Positions 48,029 through 48,752 of a stretch of DNA of 64,000 bases are shown here, piece by piece. The stretch covers positions 1-64,000 of the forward strand of contig DXJG01000009.1 of assembly GCA_019056805.1 (NCBI GenBank), read 5' to 3'. The notes beneath the pieces were generated by a model, which had not been told where the DNA came from, searched no databases, and was given only the letters and a program-made list of their open reading frames with translations. Every line of letters begins with the position of its first letter. Position 1 is the stretch's first letter. The stretch is from Candidatus Baldrarchaeota archaeon (lineage in GTDB: Archaea > Asgardarchaeota > Baldrarchaeia > Baldrarchaeales > DXJG01). The position numbers were made by a program, and so were the translations under genes.

Positions 48029-48752
48029 ATGGAGGAGGATTTTAACGTTAAGAGAGAAAAACTTATAGAAAGACTAGTTAAAGAAGGAATCTTAAAAAGT
48101 CACCGGGTAATTAAAGCTTTCAAACGTGTTCCCAGAGAGCAGTTTGTTCCCCCAGAAGCAAGAAAATATGCTTACGTCGACCAACCACTACCAATAGGCT
48201 GGGGACAAACCATAAGCGCGCCACACAGCTAGCAACACAATGCTAGCTGGGCGACACATGGTCGCAATTATGTGCGAAACTCTTGACCTTGAAGTAGGGC
48301 ATAAAATCTTAGAAATTGGTACAGGTAGTGGGTATCATGCTGCCATTTGCGCTGAAATAGTTGCTCCCTCTGATGCGGATCCTAGTGTTTGGGGACATGT
48401 TTACACTATCGAAAGAATTCCTAGTTTAGCTGAGTTTGCCAGAAAAAATCTTGAGAAAACAGGATATTTGAACAGAGTTACAGTTATTGTTGGAGATGGA
48501 ACTTGTGGCTATGCTGAAGCAGCTCCATACGATAGGATTTTAGTTACTGCTGCAAGTCCAAAGATTCCGGATCCTTTAGTTGCTCAATTAAAGATAGGAG
48601 GAAAACTTGTTATTCCTGTAGGGCATATACATTATTGGCAGGATTTAATTCTAGTCATCAAAAAGAAAGATGAAAAAATTGAAACTAAGAATTTAGGTTC
48701 TGTAGCGTTTGTGCCACTTGTAGGAAAATACGGTTGGCGCGAAGATGAATAA
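48029..48752 (+). CDS. pcm: Protein L-isoaspartate O-methyltransferase, interrupted by a BHB-type intron
   Basis: Repairs isoaspartyl damage in proteins with SAM. Reading from ATG 48029, the frame is normal to QTISAPH, then hits TAG after one more residue. From 48256 the frame carries [20 protein letters not shown] and GTGSGYHAA (SAM motif I), through to TAA 48752. Removing 48225-48255 joins the halves as ISAPHMVAIM with no residue lost or added, giving 230 residues, normal for archaeal Pcm. RBS GGTGTGAT is 4 nt before ATG. If the segment is not spliced, translation could restart at ATG 48240, giving a protein lacking the N-terminus. Both halves keep strong conservation, which argues against decay. 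Confidence 0.9.
48225..48255 (+). other. 31-nt bulge-helix-bulge intron in pcm
   Basis: Strand 1 has CGCC (48219-48222), bulge ACA (48223-48225) and CAGCTAGC (48226-48233). Strand 2 has GCTAGCTG (48242-48249), GGCG (48250-48253) and bulge ACA (48254-48256). The 8-bp hairpin has an 8-nt loop. CGCC/GGCG is the 4-bp central helix, and the bulges are both 3 nt. Cutting after the second bulge base gives 31 nt. Because both bulges read ACA, any register yields the same mRNA. The outer exon helix is weak (CCAT/ATGG, 48210-48213 with 48258-48261). Confidence 0.85.

Follow-up and report, generated by a model that had tools for sequence, protein, structure and literature searches.

How could an intact protein-L-isoaspartate methyltransferase be made from a pcm gene whose reading frame is broken within a conserved motif? 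This question is raised by one locus of the window analyzed here, a 64,000-nt stretch of DNA that is part of contig C17 in an Asgard genome of 1.92 Mb on 18 contigs. The gene extends on the forward strand from its ATG at 48029 to the end of its stop codon at 48752, and direct reading of the sequence confirms the proposal of the initial annotation that the frame is split by 31 nt (48225-48255) at the ISAPHMVAIM segment. Without splicing, the frame hits a TAG at 48230 inside the insert, and the ORF caller outputs two broken ORFs at the locus, while the rest of the frame beyond the insert is clean. Removal of the 31 nt results in a 230-aa ORF containing ...TISAPHMVAIM..., which matches Pfam PCMT over the full protein length with 241.9 bits, compared to 58.8 and 170.9 bits for its halves. 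The earlier claim that cutting at both bulges restores the frame, here with APHMV, is therefore upheld.

The insert and its borders read CGCC-ACA, followed by the hairpin CAGCTAGCA ACACAA TGCTAGCTG and then GGCG-ACA, i.e., a canonical 3-4-3 bulge-helix-bulge (BHB) with a 9-bp intron hairpin. This agrees with the bulges (ACA and ACA) and the central helix (CGCC/GGCG) that had been annotated, though the hairpin comprises 9 bp and not the 8 bp given originally. The predicted exon junction 48224|48256 reads ACCATAAGCGCGCCAC|ACATGGTCGCAATTATG. The features of the locus are given below together with observations on a carrier set of 53 distinct sequenced pcm genes from Asgard families, Bathyarchaeia, and other Thermoproteota (mostly metagenome assemblies).

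48029..48224, + strand: pcm exon 1, codons 1-65 plus the first base of the His codon; N-terminal part of PCMT (58.8 bits).
48218, + strand: outer pair G-C with 48257; paired in 53/53 carriers, outer helix elsewhere weak.
48219..48222, + strand: 5' strand of the central helix, CGCC, exonic; paired in 53/53, with a G-C to A-U double change in 8.
48223..48225, + strand: 5' bulge ACA, predicted cut after 48224; the only register with Pro-His-Met in 53/53.
48225..48255, + strand: pcm intron, 31 nt, not a multiple of 3, in-frame TAG at 48230; insert at the same position in 53 distinct pcm genes.
48226..48234, + strand: 5' arm of the intron hairpin, CAGCTAGCA; covariation in relatives.
Between the arms 48226-48234 and 48241-48249, + strand: loop of the intron hairpin, ACACAA.
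48241..48249, + strand: 3' arm of the intron hairpin, TGCTAGCTG; covariation in relatives.
48250..48253, + strand: 3' strand of the central helix, GGCG, intronic; paired in 53/53.
48254..48256, + strand: 3' bulge ACA, predicted cut after 48255; register test in 53 carriers.
48256..48752, + strand: pcm exon 2, through the stop codon; C-terminal part of PCMT (170.9 bits).

The initial annotation had suggested a search for the segment in related pcm genes, and it is this search that revealed the same-position inserts of the carrier set. Among named relatives, Candidatus Baldrarchaeota Yap30.bin4.67 (L039) is closest in the pcm region, with a Pcm identity of ca. 83-87%, which places the genome among the Asgard archaea, where it belongs to Baldrarchaeia. 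A protein search across 59 Asgard genomes found the break at the identical site in other Asgard families, and reading of the DNA uncovered inserts of 29-32 nt at the identical codon in 12 Asgard genomes; at 111 other pcm loci the alignment is gapless at the insert site, i.e., exactly this segment is missing. A covariance model built from the window's pcm region and run on 228 Asgard genomes detected 13 carriers (the 12 read from DNA and G187), with matches of ca. 90 nt in carriers versus 61 nt in intron-less genes. Among 398 sampled genomes from the phylum of Culexmicrobium (Thermoproteota), the model gave ca. 42 long matches, 40 of which were read and all contain an insert of 21-40 nt with identical codon and core. 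In the class of G306, which we take to be Bathyarchaeia, 129 of 257 genomes match the model, 17 of them intron-less (61 nt) and ca. 112 with longer matches. Two Asgard bins are peculiar in that the pcm gene of G012 (L015) is placed inside the Bathyarchaeia clade, while G187 contains two intron-bearing copies of differing affinity (L200 and L201); both cases could be due to transfer or bin contamination.

The structure is retained across these genes. For the window's insert, the RNA fold has a z score of -3.4, and 0 of 200 shuffles were equally stable. Across the 12 Asgard inserts, 98.5% of the stem cells are paired with double changes in 25 cells, and none of 500 shuffles matched the observed covariation; registers slid along the alignment pair at 26-46%. 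The wider set of 53 carriers invariably has the 3-nt bulge, 4-bp helix, and 3-nt bulge at the exon-intron borders with all four pairs of the central helix formed. Eight of these genes show the change from G-C to A-U in this helix, with the exonic codon altered synonymously from GCG to GCA and the intron altered to match. Loop and length of the inserts vary, and the stems are retained by compensatory changes. The outer helix is weak overall, with the pair 48218-48257 conserved in 53/53 carriers and a second pair in 26/53.

The relatives also indicate where the cuts would fall. In the window's pcm the product is identical whichever register is cut, and the choice of register therefore depends on other carriers. 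If both bulges are cut after nucleotide 2, Pro-His-Met results in all 53, which is unmatched by other registers (9/53 after nucleotide 0 or 1 and 38/53 after nucleotide 3), and these alternative cuts were rejected. The published rule for cbf5 is that the tRNA splicing endonuclease EndA cuts between bulge nucleotides 2 and 3 (PMC2738675). Spliced in this way, the pcm ORFs of every carrier are 222-260 aa long. The insert lengths of 21-40 nt cover all three classes modulo 3 (21, 21, and 11 of 53), and a stop is present in all 11 that would stay in frame.

Explanations other than splicing have to be weighed against these data. That the ORF caller reports two broken ORFs would also fit a decaying pseudogene or a sequencing or assembly error, which we regard as next to impossible because the remaining pcm frame is clean and because independent assemblies from two phyla, including some single-contig genomes, contain the insert at the same codon with covarying stems and intact flanks. 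The initial annotation had judged random insertion or decay to be unlikely, and the 53 distinct genes with covarying stems bear this out; it had also raised the prospect that relatives might contain an assembly error or plain frameshift, against which their independent assemblies, intact flanks, and shared codon speak. It is similarly very improbable that the gene encodes a split enzyme of separate 67-aa and ca. 170-aa proteins, the second of which would start from the ATG at 48240 within the insert. This ATG lies in the hairpin (last loop base and 3' arm) outside the conserved structure, the position and frame of the stop vary between carriers, and splicing restores a universally conserved motif.

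Programmed translational bypassing would have the ribosome leave the His codon CAC before the hairpin and land on a matching codon beyond, and in the window's pcm the take-off and landing codons are indeed both CAC. However, the residues specified by these two codons agree in just 8 of 53 carriers, whereas the BHB cut restores His in all 53, and a 4-bp central helix with compensatory changes is not predicted by bypassing. We therefore give this explanation very little credence.

Because restoration of the frame, correct geometry, and conservation with covariation in relatives coincide, the segment 48225-48255 is almost certainly an archaeal BHB-type pre-mRNA intron that would be excised by the tRNA splicing endonuclease, with exons joined by RtcB to encode an intact Pcm. 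The pcm transcript would fold into a 3-nt bulge, 4-bp helix, and 3-nt bulge capped by the intron hairpin; a two-subunit tRNA splicing endonuclease would then cleave both bulges between nucleotides 2 and 3, and an RtcB-type ligase would seal the exons to give the 230-aa protein-L-isoaspartate methyltransferase. We infer cleavage, ligation, and the enzymes responsible from sequence. Far from being an isolated case, the insert is probably an old conserved intron that is common to Asgard archaea, Bathyarchaeia, and other Thermoproteota.

The genome encodes the proteins that such a pathway would need, i.e., two EndA proteins of 184 and 178 aa as well as RtcB. The first EndA subunit aligns best with the solved chain 3p1z_B, which we take to be from Aeropyrum and of the (alpha-beta)2 subunit type, and retains the Y...H...K region, while the second is without an aligned catalytic His. 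We infer an endonuclease of the broad-specificity type with one catalytic and one structural subunit. The tRNA genes look intron-rich, with introns in 14 of 16 ARAGORN predictions. Intron-containing tRNA predictions are common (e.g., window positions 29567-29676 and 55087-55207 as well as L207), and most tRNAs are missed if introns are disallowed.

In a phylogeny of 84 Pcm proteins, at least three changes are required to explain which genes are carriers, and none of 500 shuffles required as few. Carriers as one clade are not rejected (p-AU 0.489). The distribution may reflect a single origin that predates or roughly coincides with the divergence of Asgard archaea from Thermoproteota, followed by losses, or alternatively transfer.

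Is pcm the only gene of this genome with such an intron? A BHB scan covered 704 kb or ca. 37% of the genome, so that any intron count is a lower bound, and found strong 3-nt/3-nt BHBs rescuing an ORF of 150 aa or more in three genes, namely pcm, aIF5B, and pyrG; with seven control bulge geometries, the same 704 kb contained no gene with a strong BHB rescuing an ORF of this size. Other strong BHBs of the scan (L206, L270, and L282) rescue no frame and look like chance. Beyond pcm, the sampled 37% contains three mRNA BHB introns, each of which restores a universally conserved motif:

C10:39163-39195 (= L214:19163-19195): aIF5B (infB) intron, 33 nt, with a TAG, at Switch I; restores REAGGI|TQHIGA.
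C9:155012-155043 (= L274:5012-5043), minus strand: pyrG (CTP synthase) intron, 32 nt; restores KIDPYLNVD.
C10:32511-32551 (= L214:12511-12551): rpoN (Rpb10) intron, 41 nt, near the start of codon 7; restores MIIPVRCFTCGK.

These genes were identified by Pfam (pyrG and aIF5B) or by motif and gene neighbors (rpoN, whose intron-bearing gene is located between rpsI and rpsB). At the rpoN intron site, the ORF caller assigns a wrong N-terminus. The introns of aIF5B and rpoN are conserved in the sister genomes G001 and G002 and also in G003, while that of pyrG is present in G000, G001, and G002 only (thus including both sisters) and absent in others. The aIF5B intron is absent from nearly all of the 121 Bathyarchaeia-class genomes searched; in G782 (L408) of this class, the Switch-I site is occupied, as in Baldrarchaeia, by an insert that resembles a BHB and contains stops, and its removal leads to Gly-Glu-Leu (read by eye), which differs from the consensus. 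A different insert of 29 nt with a relaxed BHB (GGCA/GGCT) is found at the aIF5B P-loop (GHIDHGK|T; L305, L306, L309, and L310), and its carriers are four genomes of another Asgard family. The intron hairpins of pcm, infB, and pyrG all have GCTAG/CTAGC cores, and no intron copies occur elsewhere in the sample. A mobile repeat was considered as an explanation and rejected, since within the 704 kb sampled none of the four introns has a further strong copy.

The tRNA-splicing machinery thus appears, judged from these genes, to act on archaeal mRNAs far beyond cbf5. We lean slightly towards an even broader view in which tRNA-type mRNA splicing would be a regular, multi-gene layer of expression in Asgard archaea and Bathyarchaeia: the pcm intron would be ancestral to both and repeatedly lost, Baldrarchaeia would have gone on acquiring introns in the essential genes aIF5B, rpoN, and pyrG at universally conserved codons, and many "broken" archaeal database genes would be intact. 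Among archaeal phyla, Asgard archaea are regarded as the closest to eukaryotes. With one intron across two phyla and three more genes in one Asgard genome, it becomes possible to trace how archaeal genes have gained and lost introns, and apparent frameshifts in essential genes are explained.

Several known systems resemble the pcm intron in part. HAC1 and XBP1 of the eukaryotic unfolded protein response likewise undergo non-spliceosomal mRNA splicing with sealing by a tRNA-type ligase, but they are cut by Ire1 and not EndA, and we claim no relation to pcm. The BHB introns of archaeal tRNAs and rRNAs share the recognition structure and presumably the same endonuclease and ligase, whereas the host RNA of the pcm intron is an mRNA and the exon strand of its central helix is protein-coding. 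In the case of the BHB intron of Haloferax HVO_1309, an mRNA is likewise processed by EndA, though this intron is located in the 5'UTR while that of pcm disrupts a coding frame (PMC7714728). The same 2020 paper gives cbf5 as the sole known protein-coding case besides its own 5'UTR case (PMC7714728). The initial annotation had known of no BHB intron in pcm, and in the open-licence literature we found neither a report of those in pcm, aIF5B, pyrG, or rpoN nor one of a BHB mRNA intron in any gene of Asgard archaea or Bathyarchaeia, though these four introns may have been reported elsewhere.

The closest parallel is cbf5, of which a pre-mRNA intron was reportedly described by Watanabe in 2002. The cbf5 pre-mRNA intron of Desulfurococcales and Sulfolobales (Yokobori 2009; PMC2738675) is like that of pcm a BHB in a protein-coding gene at a conserved position, with the bulge cut between nucleotides 2 and 3, a variable interior, lineage losses, and a link to hetero-oligomeric endonuclease. 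It differs in that cbf5 introns have for the most part been classed as unconventional BHBs, while the core of the pcm intron is canonical 3-4-3, and in that splicing of cbf5 was shown by cDNA, while the pcm intron is known here from its sequence. Furthermore, the pcm intron resides in another gene and in other archaea, i.e., Asgard, Bathyarchaeia, and at least one other Thermoproteota lineage, and spans two phyla. The kind of intron is therefore known from cbf5, but the pcm intron is new, and together with the introns of the other three genes it extends the kind much further in genes and taxa than any report that we found.
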